NCBI GenBank assembly: GCA_013288075.1
Contig: JABDCQ010000012.1
Span: 1 to 41,514, forward strand
Direction: 5' to 3'
DNA: 41,514 bases
Origin: Chlamydiota bacterium
GTDB lineage: Bacteria > Chlamydiota > Chlamydiia > Chlamydiales > Rhabdochlamydiaceae
Part shown: positions 572 through 38,666 of the stretch, in pieces
Layout: each line of letters starts with the position of its first letter
How positions within the stretch are numbered: the stretch's first letter is position 1
Program-made: the position numbers and the translations under genes
The notes under the pieces: model-generated
Told to the model about the DNA's origin: nothing
Database searches by the model: none
What the model saw: only the letters and a program-made list of their open reading frames with translations

Positions 572-600
572 AGAGAGAGTTTTTATTCTCTCTTTTTTTT
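572..600 (+). terminator. candidate intrinsic terminator after rpmE
   Basis: About 30 bp after the rpmE stop, AGAGAGA (572-578) can pair with TCTCTCT (586-592) around an AT-rich loop, followed directly by a run of T to 600. The stem is GC-poor. The T run also abuts the left arm of the long inverted repeat, so either hairpin could act in termination. Confidence 0.35.
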
Positions 601-711
601 CTTCTCTCTGTGCTCTCTGTGATCTCTGTGGTAAAAAATTATCGCAGAACGTTGTAGCTAATGCGTTAGCATATTTTTTACCACAGAGATCACAGAGAGC
701 ACAGAGAGAAG
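601..711. repeat. long-hairpin dispersed repeat, copy 1 (CTCTGTGG family, subtype A)
   Basis: Inverted repeat with 39-nt arms at 601-639 and 673-711 that are exact reverse complements, separated by a 33-nt spacer. The arms contain three CTCTGTG units in tandem and end toward the loop in GGTAAAAAAT. The spacer, read on the minus strand, begins ATGCTAAC and is homologous to the spacers of the other three copies. It lies between rpmE and prfA, which run in the same direction. Confidence 0.9.
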
Positions 712-799
712 AAAGAAAAGAAGAATTCCGCTCTTTTTTTATCATGTCTATCCTAATATCCTGTTATTTTTCTTTTCTTAGTTAATCTCTAGGTAATCA

Positions 800-4362: not shown

Positions 4363-5049
4363 ATGCTCATTGATATCCTCTCTTTATTTCCTGAATATTT
4401 TCGGGGGCCTTTTGATGTTAGTATTCTAAAAAAGGCGCAAGAGAGCGGAATCATTGAAATTAATCAGGTGGATATCCGCTGTTTCAGTAAGAATAAGCAC
4501 CATAAAACAGATGATCGCCCCTTTGGGGGAGGTCCCGGAATGGTGCTTATGCCGCAGCCTACAGTGGATGCCATTAGAAGTTGTAAAAGGGAAGATTCCC
4601 ATGTGATTTATCTGTCGCCTCAAGGGAAAAAACTTGATGCGGCTATGTGCCAAAGGCTTGCAATCCACTCTCATTTGGTCTTAGTGTGTGGCCATTATGA
4701 GGGCTTAGATGAGAGAGTGATCGAAAAAGAGATAGATGAAGAGATTAGCATTGGAGACTATGTGCTCACTAATGGATGTCTTTCGGCTATTGTTCTTCTC
4801 GATGCTGTAGCTCGATTTATCCCTGGCGTTTTAGGAAATGAGGAAGCTGCAAAGTATGATTCATTCCAAAATGGCATATTCGATGCTCCTCATTATACGA
4901 GGCCCGTGGAATTTGAAGGAATGCAAGTTCCTGAAGTTTTAAGAAATGGAAACCATTCTCAGATTAGAGAGTGGAGACAGAACCAAGCTTTAAAAAAAAC
5001 AATTAGAGTCCGCCCCGATTTAATAGAGGGCCTAAAGGAGAGAAAATGA
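4363..5049 (+). CDS. trmD: tRNA (guanine-37-N1)-methyltransferase
   Basis: SPOUT-family methylase that makes m1G37 in tRNAs with a G36 anticodon and so prevents +1 frameshifting. The trefoil-knot SAM site shows as GHYEGLDERV (110-119) and SIGDYVLTNG (129-138), with PFGGGPGMV at 53-61 and the C-terminal helical segment YTRPVEFEG...VPEVLRNGNH. It has 228 residues, close to the core family length. The stop overlaps the rplS start as ATGA. Confidence 0.96.
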   Translation: MLIDILSLFPEYFRGPFDVSILKKAQESGIIEINQVDIRCFSKNKHHKTDDRPFGGGPGMVLMPQPTVDAIRSCKREDSHVIYLSPQGKKLDAAMCQRLAIHSHLVLVCGHYEGLDERVIEKEIDEEISIGDYVLTNGCLSAIVLLDAVARFIPGVLGNEEAAKYDSFQNGIFDAPHYTRPVEFEGMQVPEVLRNGNHSQIREWRQNQALKKTIRVRPDLIEGLKERK

Positions 5050-5441
5050 ACCAGTGTGATATCATTCAATTAATTGAGAAAAAACAGCTCAAAACAAATC
5101 TTCCTAAATTTCGCGTTGGAGATACTATCGCTGTCCATACACGCATTATAGAAGGTGAGAAAGAGCGTGTTCAAATATTTACAGGAACTGTTATTGCAAA
5201 AAAAGGATGCGGACTTTCTGAAACAGTTTCTTTATACCGCGTATCTTATGGTACAGGTATGGAAAGAGTGTTCACTATCCACAGCCCAAAAATTGCCAAA
5301 ATCGAGATCACTTCAAGAGGCGATACACGCCTTGCAAAACTTTATTACATCAGAGGCGCTCTTGGTAAAGCTGCTAAAGTGAAGAAACTCCTTGGCAAAG
5401 CCGCTGTTATCGAAGCCCCAGCTCCAGAAGCGGACGCTTAA
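5046..5441 (+). CDS. rplS: 50S ribosomal protein L19
   Basis: Large-subunit protein L19 at the interface with the 30S subunit. FRVGDTIAVHTRI, GTVIAKKGCGLSETVSLYRV and GMERVFTIHSPKI are characteristic, followed by a short Lys/Ala tail ending in acidic residues. The 4-nt overlap with trmD suggests translational coupling. About 40 bp after its stop begins a long inverted repeat, so the cluster may end here or be processed here. Confidence 0.96.
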   Translation: MNQCDIIQLIEKKQLKTNLPKFRVGDTIAVHTRIIEGEKERVQIFTGTVIAKKGCGLSETVSLYRVSYGTGMERVFTIHSPKIAKIEITSRGDTRLAKLYYIRGALGKAAKVKKLLGKAAVIEAPAPEADA

Positions 5442-5482: not shown

Positions 5483-5603
5483 TCTTTCTTCTCTCTGTGC
5501 TCTCTGTGATCTCTGTGGTAAAAAATATGCTAACACGTTGAATCCAACATTTTTGCAATATTTTTTACCACAGAGATCACAGAGAGCACAGAGAGAAGAA
5601 AGA
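5483..5603. repeat. long-hairpin dispersed repeat, copy 2 (CTCTGTGG family, subtype A)
   Basis: Arms at 5483-5528 and 5558-5603 are reverse complements over about 46 nt around a 29-nt spacer. Arm sequence is nearly identical to copy 1 over the central ~40 nt but continues further outward with its own matching sequence. The loop starts GCTAACACGTTGAA on the plus strand, so the element is inverted relative to copy 1. It lies between rplS and rnhB. Confidence 0.92.
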
Positions 5604-5644: not shown

Positions 5645-6268
5645 ATGCGGCAAGAATCTATTTCGAGGAACCTCCTTGTTTACGAGCAAGAAGCTCGCTC
5701 TAAAGGTTTTCATTTAATAGCAGGCGTTGATGAAGCTGGCAGAGGTCCTCTTGCAGGTCCTGTTGTAGCAGCAGCTTGTATTATCCCTTATGGCGTGATT
5801 ATTGAAGGAGTTGATGATAGCAAAGCTCTCAGCGCCGAAAAGCGGGAGCATCTTTACCAAAGGTTGACAGGCGATTCAAGTATTTGCTATGCTATTGGCA
5901 TTATCTCCTCTGTTGTTATTGATCAAATTAATATCCTCCAAGCGACCTTTTTAGCTATGCTAGAGGCTGTAAAAGGACTTGCCAAGCAGCCAGACTATGT
6001 TCTTGTAGATGGCAATTTAACTCCCCGTTTCCCTATGCCCGCGAAAGCCATAATCGATGGCGATGCTTTATCTCAGTCTATTGGAGCAGCCTCCATTATT
6101 GCAAAAGTCACTCGGGATAAGATGATGGAAGAATACGCAGCCAAATACCCTCATTTTGGGTTTTCCAAACATAAGGGATACGGGACAAAGGGGCATTTAG
6201 CGGAAATTGCACGCCATGGGCCAACTCCCATTCATCGCTTTAGCTTTTCCCCCATTAAAAAGGGTTGA
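5645..6268 (+). CDS. rnhB: ribonuclease HII
   Basis: Cuts the RNA strand of RNA/DNA hybrids and starts ribonucleotide excision from DNA. The catalytic block GVDEAGRGPLAGPVVAAA begins at residue 27, giving D29 and E30; VLVDGN supplies the next acidic residue and GAASIIAKVTRD the later one. The 207 residues are the full family length. It starts about 40 nt after the right arm of repeat copy 2. Confidence 0.96.
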   Translation: MRQESISRNLLVYEQEARSKGFHLIAGVDEAGRGPLAGPVVAAACIIPYGVIIEGVDDSKALSAEKREHLYQRLTGDSSICYAIGIISSVVIDQINILQATFLAMLEAVKGLAKQPDYVLVDGNLTPRFPMPAKAIIDGDALSQSIGAASIIAKVTRDKMMEEYAAKYPHFGFSKHKGYGTKGHLAEIARHGPTPIHRFSFSPIKKG

Positions 6269-11470: not shown

Positions 11471-11722
11471 GAGCAAACTCTTTGTCCCATTAGGGACAGC
11501 GGTACGTAGCCAGGGCGTGACGAAGGAACCCCTGGAAAACGTGAACAACAAAATCGCACTCCATCGGAGTGCAGGATAGCAAAAAGAACCTAAAAATCTT
11601 GTTTTCTAAGTCCAAGATTCCAGCACTCCTAAGGAGTGCATTTTTAGATTCATTTTATCCAGGGGTTCCTTCGTCACCCCTGGCTACGTACCACTGTCCC
11701 TAATGGGACAAAGAGTTTGCTC
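11471..11722. repeat. 252-bp nested inverted repeat (REP/MITE-like)
   Basis: The outer arms 11471-11536 and 11658-11722 are reverse complements over 65-66 nt with about two differences. Each arm can also fold on itself: TGTCCC-ATTA-GGGACA near its outer end, and CCAGGG...CCCCTGG near its inner end. Between the arms lie two more hairpins, GCACTCC...GGAGTGC at 11556-11572 and GCACTCCT-A-AGGAGTGC at 11623-11639. No ORF is inside. It fills most of the 490-bp gap between the DJ-1 gene and the amine oxidase; the rest (11723-11921) shows only a possible promoter. Confidence 0.9.
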
Positions 11723-34067: not shown

Positions 34068-35876
34068 TTATTTGGGATGAGCGGGATCAAACGCCCAATG
34101 CGAGGTGCTAAATCCCTGACTTGCGGCCCAATTAGCCATTTCTACAGGATCATATGCATGGGCATCAAAATCATCGATCCCTACGGAAACTCTTTCCGAA
34201 GTAAAACCATAGTTTTGTTTTAACCAGTTCGACCACCCAAGTATCCAGCCTTTTTCCGATTCTATCGGATCGTAATAGGACATGATATAAAACATATCGA
34301 CTGCGCAATTTCCAGGGGAAATCATCGCTGCATCTAATATCGTTTTTACAACTGGTTGCCAAGGGTAGTAAGGGCCAAATCCCGCATTCGAGCAAAGGCT
34401 TGTCTTAAAGTTAGGATCAATAGCTTTGAATTGCTTAATTAAAGTCCCCACTAGGACTTCTTGATCTGAGGAAAGAAATTCTTCATAATCAAAATCCACT
34501 CCAACAAGTCCATGAGCATGGCAAAAGTCTGCCATCCCTTGCGCAAAGGCTTGGGTATTTGCAGTTGTTAGCCTGTCCCAGCATCGATCATACATCCCTC
34601 CAGAACCTCCGATAGACACTTTAACTTCTATAGGAGGATTTTGAGAGCGGCAGTATGCTGTAAAGGCATCTATCTGCGCATCAGTGAGATTTCCAAATCC
34701 ACCGAGTGTCGGCTTGCCAGCTCCATCAAATTTCAATTCTCCTACAAAGATGTTAAGGCGATTAACGTTAGTAGGAATGACAAACGGAGGACCTGTAAAC
34801 CAAGAGGTCCAGTCAATGTACCAAGCTGAATGTTCGATACCTTGTGATAGGGGAGGGACAGGAGGAGGGGGTGGTGGTGATGGTGCTTGTGATGTAGAAA
34901 CGCTTTGCACGTTGCTATAAGCACCTGTTCCTGCATCATTTGTAGCTGAAACGCGATAAAAATACGTACCGGCTGCTTGAGCTGAAACAGCAGCAGAAAG
35001 CACATTTCCCTTAGCCACAATTACGGGATTAGAAAAACTGCTTGTAGTGCCTTGCTCTAAAGTATAGGAGGTTGCTCCATCTACCGCATTCCAAGAAACG
35101 GTAGGAGTTGGACCCGCCATAATAGGATTTAAAACAGGTGCACGGGGCGCGGTCTGCAGAGGGGCGCTTCCATTGGCTGCCGCTTGTAAATTGCTGATCC
35201 TAGGTTTCCCTAAAGAAGGCATTACGATAATCATGGTAAAAACGCTTGAGCCTCCAGGAGGGATAACCTCTGATGAGGTTAAGCTTTTGACTGTAACGTT
35301 TTGGCCGCTCAGAGTGAATACCCCGTTCCAAACATGGGAGCTAAGAGAATGTCCCTCCGGCATTGTAAACGTAGCTATCCAAGAAGATACCGGCGTGTTT
35401 GAGTTGTTTGTCAGGGTAACCTTGACTTCATAAGCTGTTGCCCAAACAGTATCGACAGTTGCCACGGCGCCAAGCGTTGCATTTGGCAAAGAAGGCACTA
35501 CAGGAACTCCTGTAGCTGTTACTCCTTGCAAATTGCCTGTAGCCATTTGGGGATTCTCTACCTGGAATCCGAACTTAGCACTTTGCCCGGCTTGTATTGT
35601 AGTGTTTTCTGTTTGACTTGTGACCGTTACGTTTTGATTACTTTGCGTAAAGGCTCCATTCCATAAACAGTGAACGGATTGTCCTTGTGGAAGAGAAAAG
35701 TTAACTTTCCACGAAGAAATTGCTTCGTTGGAAGAATTTGTAACGGTTAATTCGGTTACATATCCAGTATCCCAAGCTGAAGTAATTGCAGAATTTGCTT
35801 CAATTTGGACATCGCCATTCAACCCTGCGCTTAGAAAAGCCAGGCAACATAAAAAATTAAGGAAGGACTTCTTCAT
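34068..35876 (-). CDS. secreted GH18 chitinase-like protein with two CBM2-like domains
   Basis: 602 residues from the ATG at 35876, chosen because AAAGGAG lies 7 nt upstream and a signal peptide (1-20) follows at once. Domains: CBM2-like carbohydrate-binding (about 22-115; W35, W56, W72), a second one (about 140-222; W145, W166, W183), an Fn3 domain (about 245-330), a proline linker (333-342), and a GH18 barrel (about 347-602). The catalytic strand is GVDFDYEE with D461, D463 and E465; the first Asp of the usual DxxDxDxE is Val458. GH18 enzymes cut chitin, and CBM2 binds cellulose or chitin. Because amoeba cyst walls contain cellulose, a role in wall attachment or breakdown is a reasonable inference. 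Confidence 0.85.
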   Translation of the reverse strand: MKKSFLNFLCCLAFLSAGLNGDVQIEANSAITSAWDTGYVTELTVTNSSNEAISSWKVNFSLPQGQSVHCLWNGAFTQSNQNVTVTSQTENTTIQAGQSAKFGFQVENPQMATGNLQGVTATGVPVVPSLPNATLGAVATVDTVWATAYEVKVTLTNNSNTPVSSWIATFTMPEGHSLSSHVWNGVFTLSGQNVTVKSLTSSEVIPPGGSSVFTMIIVMPSLGKPRISNLQAAANGSAPLQTAPRAPVLNPIMAGPTPTVSWNAVDGATSYTLEQGTTSSFSNPVIVAKGNVLSAAVSAQAAGTYFYRVSATNDAGTGAYSNVQSVSTSQAPSPPPPPPVPPLSQGIEHSAWYIDWTSWFTGPPFVIPTNVNRLNIFVGELKFDGAGKPTLGGFGNLTDAQIDAFTAYCRSQNPPIEVKVSIGGSGGMYDRCWDRLTTANTQAFAQGMADFCHAHGLVGVDFDYEEFLSSDQEVLVGTLIKQFKAIDPNFKTSLCSNAGFGPYYPWQPVVKTILDAAMISPGNCAVDMFYIMSYYDPIESEKGWILGWSNWLKQNYGFTSERVSVGIDDFDAHAYDPVEMANWAASQGFSTSHWAFDPAHPK

Positions 35877-36005
35877 AAACTTTCTCCTTTGTTGAAAAGT
35901 TCTCCTGAATTTTAAAGAATTTGTATTTTTTATGTAAAAGTAATATTTATTTATCGGTAATTTTTTTTTTGTGAGCATTGCATAAGTTAGAGCTAGGCCC
36001 TAGTG

Positions 36006-37466
36006 CTAAGGAAGTATTAGTCGATGCCCAATGAGCTCTGCTGTATTTGAATCTTCAAAGGCATGTGTTGCTAAAAGCATCATATGAGCTTTTTTAAAAT
36101 CACTCCAATCGATAAGAGAAGTATATTTTTGAGCAAAATCAAGAACTCTAATTAGCGCATCAGGTCTAGCTTGGTGAGTCAGAGCCTTGAGCGCTGAAAG
36201 ATAATTATTTCTGAAAATAGTTGGGATGATAATTCTTGCTTGATTTCCAGCTACTAGTTCCGCATTCATCATGATCCTAGCGCATCTCCCGTTCCCATCT
36301 GCGAAGGGATGAACCTCTGAAATCAAAAACATCATATAAACTGCGCGCTGAAATGGGGTATTTAGTCCTTGAAGCCATTGGAACCCTTTTTTCAGTGTCC
36401 CTTCCACGAGATGGGGAGCCACAAAAAGAGTTGAACCTGCCTGATTTAGAACTGTTTTAAATTCTCCTGGATGCACTTCACGGCGCCCTTGCATCAAAAA
36501 AGCATGGCGACGTTTTAGAATTGTTATGAGTTCGTCTTCGCTTTTAGGGCATTTTATCATCTCTTTTATATCGGAAGTGATTTGATAGGTGCCAAGAATA
36601 TCGTGGGCATCTTCAGGTCGATTTTTTGGGATTTTTCCTTCAAAGATAATCTCAGCAGCCTCTTCAACTTGAAATTCTGTTCCTTCAATGAAATTTGAGA
36701 AGTATGCTTCAAAAAAAGGAAGAGAAGAACCTAAGTCATTCATAAAGCGGTCCGGAGTGCTGATACTTGCAAGTGATTCATATAATTTCTGAAAAAGATC
36801 AAGCCGTTTTGGATCGTAAGGCAATCCTTGAGTCCTGGCAATTGCTATTGAAGAGATCATAGGGATACTGCGTGTTCCAAGAAGAGTTCCAATTAACCCA
36901 TCTAGGATTTTATATTCTTTCTCTAAATCTAGTTGCAAGGCAACTCTTTTTGCCATATCTCGAAGAGCCTGAAGAGCCTCAATTCCGGCTCCTTGAAGAA
37001 GAGTTTCTAGGCGTTCTTCAATTTCTTTGCGGGAAAGCGTTCTCCCTATGCCTCCTCCTCGAGTTCTCCTTTTACACAAATTTTCTAAATAAGCACGCGC
37101 AGGACAGGATAAATAGAGTTTTTCCATGAATGGTTTATCTTCATCAAGTGGGCCGTGCCCTTTTCTTGGATATATCGAGAGACCTGGAAGATGGATTGCT
37201 CTCTTCTTTTTAGATACAATGAACACTGATCCATCAGCTGCCGGTCGATGTTCAAGCGCTGTTCGATCAACAATTACACTGCCTGGAAATAGCTCTTTTA
37301 CAATAAACCAGGCATGACGTTTGACTAAGAGCTCTTTAGATTCGGTTAAATTAGTTGTGTACACTTTACTGCCTAGTTTGCGCAGACGCCCTTTTTTTAC
37401 CTCTTTTGATACATAGGAGGCAAGGCTTGTATCTGAAACAAAGACCTCGGGTAAGAATGTGGTCAT
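36006..37466 (-). CDS. Fic AMP-transferase with AbiEi-like N-terminal region
   Basis: 486 residues. The N-terminal ~130 residues (KKGRLRKLGSKVYTTN, VIVDRTALEHRPAADG, AIHLPGLSIYPRKG) resemble the winged-helix and following domain of AbiEi-type transcriptional antitoxins. The C-terminal Fic domain carries the complete motif HPFADGNGR (386-394) for AMP transfer from ATP to hydroxyl side chains. The inhibitory motif SNFIEG at 257-262 fits the (S/T)xxxE(G/N) consensus of class II Fic proteins, so activity is probably self-restrained. No signal peptide. The N-terminal region suggests DNA binding and autoregulation. AGAGG lies before the ATG. Confidence 0.85.
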   Translation of the reverse strand: MTTFLPEVFVSDTSLASYVSKEVKKGRLRKLGSKVYTTNLTESKELLVKRHAWFIVKELFPGSVIVDRTALEHRPAADGSVFIVSKKKRAIHLPGLSIYPRKGHGPLDEDKPFMEKLYLSCPARAYLENLCKRRTRGGGIGRTLSRKEIEERLETLLQGAGIEALQALRDMAKRVALQLDLEKEYKILDGLIGTLLGTRSIPMISSIAIARTQGLPYDPKRLDLFQKLYESLASISTPDRFMNDLGSSLPFFEAYFSNFIEGTEFQVEEAAEIIFEGKIPKNRPEDAHDILGTYQITSDIKEMIKCPKSEDELITILKRRHAFLMQGRREVHPGEFKTVLNQAGSTLFVAPHLVEGTLKKGFQWLQGLNTPFQRAVYMMFLISEVHPFADGNGRCARIMMNAELVAGNQARIIIPTIFRNNYLSALKALTHQARPDALIRVLDFAQKYTSLIDWSDFKKAHMMLLATHAFEDSNTAELIGHRLILP

Positions 37467-38476: not shown

Positions 38477-38666
38477 GAAAAAAACAAAGAGATAATTTTT
38501 CCTCTCTTTCTCTCTTTTCCCCCTCTGTGGTTTCTTCCCTCTGTGGTTAAAAAAATGCAAGTCTTTTGCATCTATAAGCTTAGCCAAAGAATTAACCACA
38601 GAGACAAGAAACCACAGAGGGGGAAAAGAGAGAAAGAGAGGGAAATTATCCCTCTTTGTTTTTTTC
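38477..38666. repeat. long-hairpin dispersed repeat, copy 4 (CTCTGTGG family, subtype B)
   Basis: Largest copy: arms 38477-38550 and 38592-38666, about 74 nt each, nearly perfect reverse complements with three or four differences and a one- to two-base bulge. The outer ~25 nt (GAAAAAAACAAAGAG...) are unlike any other copy yet present in both arms. The loop on the minus strand starts TTTGGCTAAG and ends ACTTGCAT, homologous to copy 3. It lies upstream of rlmF and after the outer-membrane protein gene. Confidence 0.93.

Follow-up and report, generated by a model that had tools for sequence, protein, structure and literature searches.

Palindromic hairpins dispersed in a Chlamydiota genome and their probable kinship with the inverted arms around GxxExxY genes

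Four long hairpins in two families

The window, by which we mean the whole 41,514-nt stretch of DNA analyzed, belongs to contig JABDCQ010000012.1 of a Chlamydiota bacterium (assembly GCA_013288075.1), a 1.77-Mb draft genome of 71 contigs that is about 80% complete. In keeping with this phylum, the genomes of its group share their loci with named Chlamydiae and Parachlamydiaceae contigs. Four long hairpins had been predicted in it, and all four were found (Table 1). Copy 1 occupies the spacer between rpmE and prfA with a stem that, as predicted, is perfect over 39 bp (601-639 with 673-711, all positions paired) and that reaches 49 bp with one mismatch when extended to 591-639/673-721. The best inverted-repeat score in the window, 46 for copies 1 and 2, compares with 11 to 12 in simulated sequence (three times 41.5 kb, with the dinucleotide make-up of the window), which places the hairpin of copy 1 beyond chance. 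As single-stranded RNA, copy 1 has a folding energy of -88.7 kcal/mol (z, -16).

Table 1. Positions of the four hairpins in the window and the genes next to copies 1 and 2
Feature	Position	Strand	Description
Copy 1, family A hairpin	591-721		Core arms 601-639 and 673-711, perfectly paired; loop 640-672
Setting of copy 1			Between rpmE (222-542) and prfA (800-1753)
Conserved three-word arm of copy 1	683-706	+	CACAGAGATCACAGAGAGCACAGAG region; word array u; complement in 606-629
Copy 2, family A hairpin	5483-5603		Perfect 46-bp arms 5483-5528 and 5558-5603
Setting of copy 2			Between rplS (5046-5441) and rnhB (5645-6268)
Copy 3, family B hairpin	32031-32209		Imperfect; arms of 53 nt, mismatched at 13 positions; outer pair 32060-32083/32157-32180 clean
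Copy 4, family B hairpin	38478-38664		Arms 38497-38550 and 38592-38645, with 3 mismatches in 54 nt; a weaker match continues outward up to 73 nt

Copies 1 and 2 have a 39-nt core arm that is identical letter for letter and loops that differ, the loop of copy 2 lying in the opposite orientation to that of copy 1; the arm of copies 3 and 4 is distinct from theirs. What the original prediction took for one family is, by arm sequence, two, namely, A (copies 1 and 2) and B (copies 3 and 4), and the loops of the two families are weakly related (mean score, 17.9, versus 14.4 for shuffled loops, with 15% of the shuffles as high). The stems had also been described as differing between copies, which is true of A against B and untrue of copies 1 and 2; the apparent difference among the four stems arises mainly from the comparison of two families.

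Other features of the window were recorded as well. Just upstream of copy 1 and outside its core, positions 572-593 contain a terminator-like stem followed by T8, which may be a chance occurrence in a purine/pyrimidine tract. Nested palindromes of another family lie at 11471-11722, with 45-bp outer arms, inner arms of GGCGTGACGAAGGAACCCCTGG, and inside them a further hairpin-like pair, CACTCC...GGAGTG. The protein encoded at 34068-37466 on the minus strand has a cellulose-binding domain (CBM_2) and a weak match to GH18 (chitinase type), and a Fic-domain protein adjoins it. PrfA has 317 amino acids here compared with about 360 in relatives, and its matches in relatives split near residues 28 to 33, as if an in-frame gap had removed some 40 residues from its N-terminal part; an assembly artifact could conceivably account for the shortening.

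Copy number, conservation, and insertion

Exact A-arm words occur 107 times and B-arm words 383 times in the genome, corresponding to about 53 family A and about 190 family B hairpins, or some 240 short palindromic insertions. The family B arm word (ACCACAGAG) is related to that of family A. It has a single match among the remaining 233 genomes of the phylum, and family B, judged by these counts, has expanded almost exclusively in this genome. In a sample of 414 kb, composed of the window and 20 further stretches (372 kb) of the genome, 87 long inverted repeats made up 2.6% of the sequence, several further families being among them. The original prediction that the loops are the conserved part is reversed within each family: the inner stem is conserved at 95% in family A and at 84 to 89% in family B, against 80% and 69%, respectively, for the loops.

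Comparison with relatives indicates that the hairpins were inserted. The genes rpmE and prfA are adjacent in 19 relatives that have no hairpin there (the stretch of one further relative yielded no rpmE), and their spacer is 0 to 78 bp long (175 bp in one) compared with 257 bp here; these lengths vary with the choice of start codon, which does not affect the absence of the hairpin. Similarly, rplS and rnhB are adjacent in 20 relatives with no hairpin of the family of copy 2, two of them having unrelated hairpins. Because the same gene pairs occur in relatives without the hairpin, copies 1 and 2 are, on the evidence of gene order, insertions between conserved neighbors.

The hairpins lie closer to the 3' ends of genes (median distance, 34 nt from stop codons) than to the 5' ends (105 nt from start codons), and the flanking genes are codirectional in 62 cases, convergent in 26, and divergent in 9, against 54, 15, and 28 expected. 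This bias toward 3' ends and the avoidance of divergent spacers are as expected if insertions into promoters are lost; a 3'-end bias is known for bacterial stem-loops generally (PMC1590033). A search for target-site duplications gave no enrichment of any k-mer at a fixed offset beside the copies, whose outer boundaries are uncertain because many copies run outward into further matched modules (AGGATATACAGGATGAAG in family A and AACAAAGAGG in family B).

Family A arms around GxxExxY genes

The arm of family A has the form ACCACAGAG-N2-CACAGAG-N2-CACAGAG and was found in at least 116 stretches from many phyla, including archaea. In the present genome, it also brackets a gene: 36-bp A arms stand on both sides of a GxxExxY gene (genome G000, locus L347, C2:9315-9659) with matches to TIGR04256 and to Pfam PDDEXK_3, which is no known transposase family. 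The N terminus of its product, LTTEITEHTEK, is the translated A arm, and among the bracketed genes of many phyla the arm sometimes codes for the N-terminal end of the protein.

This association holds well beyond one genome. GxxExxY is encoded in 41 of 48 genomes that were chosen for carrying the arm. An inverted arm pair scoring at least 18 surrounds 19 of 28 GxxExxY loci from arm-bearing genomes and none of 343 control windows from the same stretches, where the maximum was 12. Among 55 distinct loci, the arm points into the gene from upstream (u) in 35 and from downstream (rc(u)) in 33, with both in 27; the wrong orientation was seen 4 times upstream and 7 times downstream, and the density of arms farther off is 0.12 per kb. 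In a set of 234 genomes from the phylum that was selected without regard to arms, 49 have arm and gene, 9 the arm only, 43 the gene only, and 133 neither (Fisher P = 4e-16, kinship ignored), and the distribution is patchy within families.

Different word arrays, namely, AACGAT, CACAGATTA/CACAAATTA, and CACAAAG/CACGAAG, stand on both sides of other GxxExxY genes, and the arrays follow the phylogeny of the protein. When the CACAGAG label is mapped on a tree of 55 proteins, it requires 8 changes, compared with 12.6 for shuffled labels (0 of 500 shuffles were as low). The two CACAGATTA-armed proteins, from hosts in the Bacteroidota and Aminicenantes, form one clade and the two AACGAT-armed proteins another, small as these numbers are. 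In a Prevotella copy (L166), intact arms enclose the opening 25 residues of the domain together with fragments of its remainder, and this copy is, by its remaining sequence, an internal-deletion derivative. One Omnitrophota contig (L173) contains two bracketed copies whose proteins are 80% alike. No gene was found between B arms, nor was a driver of family B found.

In three loci (L380 1401-1703, L425, and L423), both arms around the GxxExxY gene contain, at the same site, a small inserted palindrome (CCCGCGAACAAAGTTCGCTAGAG or one like it); it is translated in the N terminus of the protein and looks as if it had been copied from arm to arm. In Bacteroides fragilis, CTCTGTGTTCTCTGTGGTG is part of a published primer located next to the invertible LC promoter (PMC3090145), and a copy of the arm appears to lie there.

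Among isolate replicons, arms were found in six cyanobacterial plasmids and in no phage, and of 72,556 plasmids and 50,697 phages, 8 plasmids and no phage carry the GxxExxY gene; on this rarity, we rejected isolate phages and plasmids as carriers. Arms are present in metagenomic viral contigs, five of which carry the GxxExxY gene. In two viral contigs (L263 2799-6914 and L224 215-10975), arm-type hairpins follow almost every gene.

With a probability of roughly 70%, the hairpins are dispersed, nonautonomous miniature palindromic elements, and the arms of family A are the inverted pair (u ... rc(u)) of an element with GxxExxY as its sole gene. This reading draws on the insertions, the copy number, the fixed orientation of the arms around GxxExxY, the tracking of protein clades by arm words, and the deletion derivative. 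Copy 1 thus seems to be a reduced version of a mobile element of a kind that is widespread and, it appears, has yet to be described.

The GxxExxY protein as a candidate mover

The GxxExxY protein, of about 120 amino acids, belongs to the PD-(D/E)XK nuclease family. An AlphaFold2 model built from six sequences (pLDDT, 91.6; pTM, 0.84) has SSO0001, a Cas4 nuclease, as its closest solved fold, followed by alkaline and lambda exonucleases. Residues D67, E77-x-K79, and Q91 are conserved in the alignment, a pattern typical of RecB/Cas4-type nucleases, and Y95 is also invariant. Together, the fold match and the conserved residues point to a putative nuclease role. Sequence search found no solved homologue, and a Holliday junction resolvase fold was rejected, since resolvases stand far down the list that Cas4 and lambda exonuclease head. 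In the open-access literature, GxxExxY (PF13366) occurs in passing mentions only and the letters of the arm in two primers only; an earlier description of the element elsewhere, in subscription journals or database comments, is possible.

A different mover, either a RAYT-type Y1 transposase or the replication and repair machinery of the host, might instead have dispersed the arms, in which case GxxExxY would be a passenger, or cargo that makes use of these arms. The nine arm-bearing genomes of the phylum in which no GxxExxY gene was detected, some of them incomplete, are what this explanation would lead one to expect, as are the negative search for a target duplication and the resemblance of the protein to Cas4 and lambda exonuclease rather than to transposases. 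The genome also has a Y1_Tnp gene, but this gene (L363 1225-1868), the sole one found, lies between different inverted arms, AAGGCCAACGGCC...GCCCAGG (AAGGCC...GCCCAGG), and appears to form a RAYT/REP-like set of its own; RAYT was rejected as the driver on this ground. Since the arms bracket GxxExxY closely and in one orientation in many phyla, and their word tracks the nuclease clade, we consider another mover unlikely.

Agreement between the arms of a copy

The original prediction that both arms of a copy match beyond the family consensus was borne out. Mismatches per stem in family A number 1.11 between the arms of the same copy and 2.19 between swapped arms; in family B, they number 5.87 and 6.62, both figures being inflated by ungapped counting that includes indels. 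In neither family was any of 2,000 permutations as low. In family A, the agreement comes mostly from one dinucleotide, TG, CT, TT, or CG, which is as a rule matched in the opposite arm. In family B, the inner stem is nearly fixed and an outer pyrimidine tract varies from copy to copy: over the outer 20 nt, identity falls from 0.92 to 0.57 between own arms and from 0.65 to 0.41 between swapped arms, and seven outer-stem haplotypes are private to one copy, each present in both of its arms. Coevolution of arms, which independent divergence genome-wide would have spoken against, therefore stands with regard to the agreement of own arms and is qualified by decay of one arm, which is common too, above all in family B.

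Selection for pairing in RNA was one of the causes originally considered. The hairpins would then be structured RNA or transcriptional punctuation (a terminator, an RNase III site, or a stabilizer of mRNA 3' ends), and matched changes in the arms would preserve a transcript that must fold. The very stable fold of copy 1, the position near 3' ends, and the avoidance of divergent spacers are all in keeping with such a role. However, mismatches on the transcribed strand of codirectional copies, with the strand taken from rough open reading frame calls, comprise 42 G.U and 53 A.C, and a structured RNA should favor G.U, so that pairing selection is unlikely. Furthermore, a scan of the window with Rfam 15 at the gathering score returned a tRNA only and no match for the hairpins, the T/A tract of copy 1 lies inside its stem rather than after it (an intrinsic terminator has a GC-rich stem with an immediate U tract), relatives lack hairpins at the same places, and the arms accompany a gene. 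We regard it as improbable that the hairpins are kept for a function in RNA.

Least probable of all is local formation of palindromes without mobility, by slippage and template switching in CT-rich sequence, which would suit an outer pyrimidine tract that differs between copies and matches between arms but is refuted as the sole cause by inner arms and loops that are homologous across about 50 (A) and about 190 (B) dispersed places, which local formation cannot produce. Relatives also lack the hairpin at the sites of copies 1 and 2. The same process may act on arms after insertion.

Agreement between arms is better explained at the level of DNA, by palindromic copying or by copying from arm to arm, followed by independent decay. 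Of the causes named in the original prediction, arm-to-arm conversion or snap-back copying is thus favored; taken as a whole, its observation is partly confirmed and its interpretation partly supported.

A proposed route of dispersal

If the hairpins are miniature elements with a GxxExxY parent, the nuclease would recognize the words repeated in its arms, possibly in the form of an extruded cruciform or of a single-stranded hairpin, and would cut there, the element being copied by repair. Miniature copies could be moved in trans by the same nuclease. Each copy would be made, or later mended, as a DNA palindrome, by fold-back or template-switch copying or by arm conversion, which we propose as the reason why arms match within a copy; the palindromes would then decay by ordinary mutation, and the insertions that survive would for the most part follow stop codons and would seldom lie in promoters. 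The outer arms, matched yet diverging, may accordingly be read as a trace that fold-back copying or conversion between arms has left in nature.

The miniatures of this genome have the order rc(u)-loop-u and are inside out with respect to the gene-bearing u-gene-rc(u), whereas most miniatures elsewhere share the orientation of the gene. A simple internal deletion does not explain an inside-out order. Our guess is that the inside-out miniatures arose by fold-back copying from the end of an element into its flank, the shared loop being the flank of the founder.

More generally, and tentatively, GxxExxY genes with inverted word-array arms may constitute a class of bacterial and archaeal mobile DNA in which a small Cas4/RecB-like PD-(D/E)XK nuclease acts on its own palindromic ends in place of a transposase, and the CACAGAG, CACAGATTA, CACAAAG/CACGAAG, and AACGAT palindromes may be miniature derivatives that are made perfect again by fold-back copying at each move. 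Such palindromes are found in a great many phyla, and the open literature searched assigns them no owner. A link to one nuclease family would provide a testable mover for them and a candidate function for GxxExxY, which is widely annotated yet unstudied; if it is true, a nuclease with a palindrome would be one more way for short DNA to spread through genomes.

Comparison with known systems

ERIC, NEMIS, RPE, and other stem-loop families are likewise long intergenic hairpins biased toward the 3' ends of genes. They differ from the present hairpins in sequence, the portion of the source at hand (PMC1590033) gives no gene partner for them, and the arm described here crosses phyla.

Intervening sequences (IVSs) of 23S rRNA that encode S23p resemble the GxxExxY element in having a small open reading frame within a long stem-loop and a patchy distribution, but the gene family is another and the copies in the window stand between protein genes rather than in rRNA helices (PMC4990558). 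Excision by RNase III belongs to the definition of an rRNA IVS. In this genome and two relatives, genes for S23p, the four-helix-bundle protein of 23S IVSs (23S IVP), are bracketed by inverted GTGCCC word arrays (L365 1394-1892, L377 1137-1864, and L378 1234-1681). The S23p gene of this genome was rejected as the driver because its arms are GTGCCC arms and not those of family A or B. This one genome contains three protein designs, Y1_Tnp, the four-helix-bundle S23p, and GxxExxY, with three sets of arms.

Miniature inverted-repeat transposable elements (MITEs) are also short and without genes, and their ends are those of a longer gene-bearing element in the same genome, here the one at C2:9315-9659; the Prevotella copy with remnants of the gene corresponds to their deletion derivatives (PMC10969869). 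Unlike MITEs, the miniatures of this genome have no transposase parent and are inside out relative to the parent proposed for them. No target-site duplication was seen beside the copies, whose boundaries are uncertain.

A close parallel is with REPIN/RAYT systems, in which inverted doublets without a gene are dispersed as extragenic, high-copy hairpins and the repeat recurs on both sides of a small nuclease-type gene that has a single domain and is present once per genome (PMC3116915). The gene here encodes a PD-(D/E)XK protein instead of the Y1 HuH transposase RAYT, the arms are arrays of a 7-nt word 30 to 50 bp long in place of REPs of 20 to 40 bp, and the arms are common to many phyla. Most likely, the miniature elements work as REPIN/RAYT systems do, with another enzyme.
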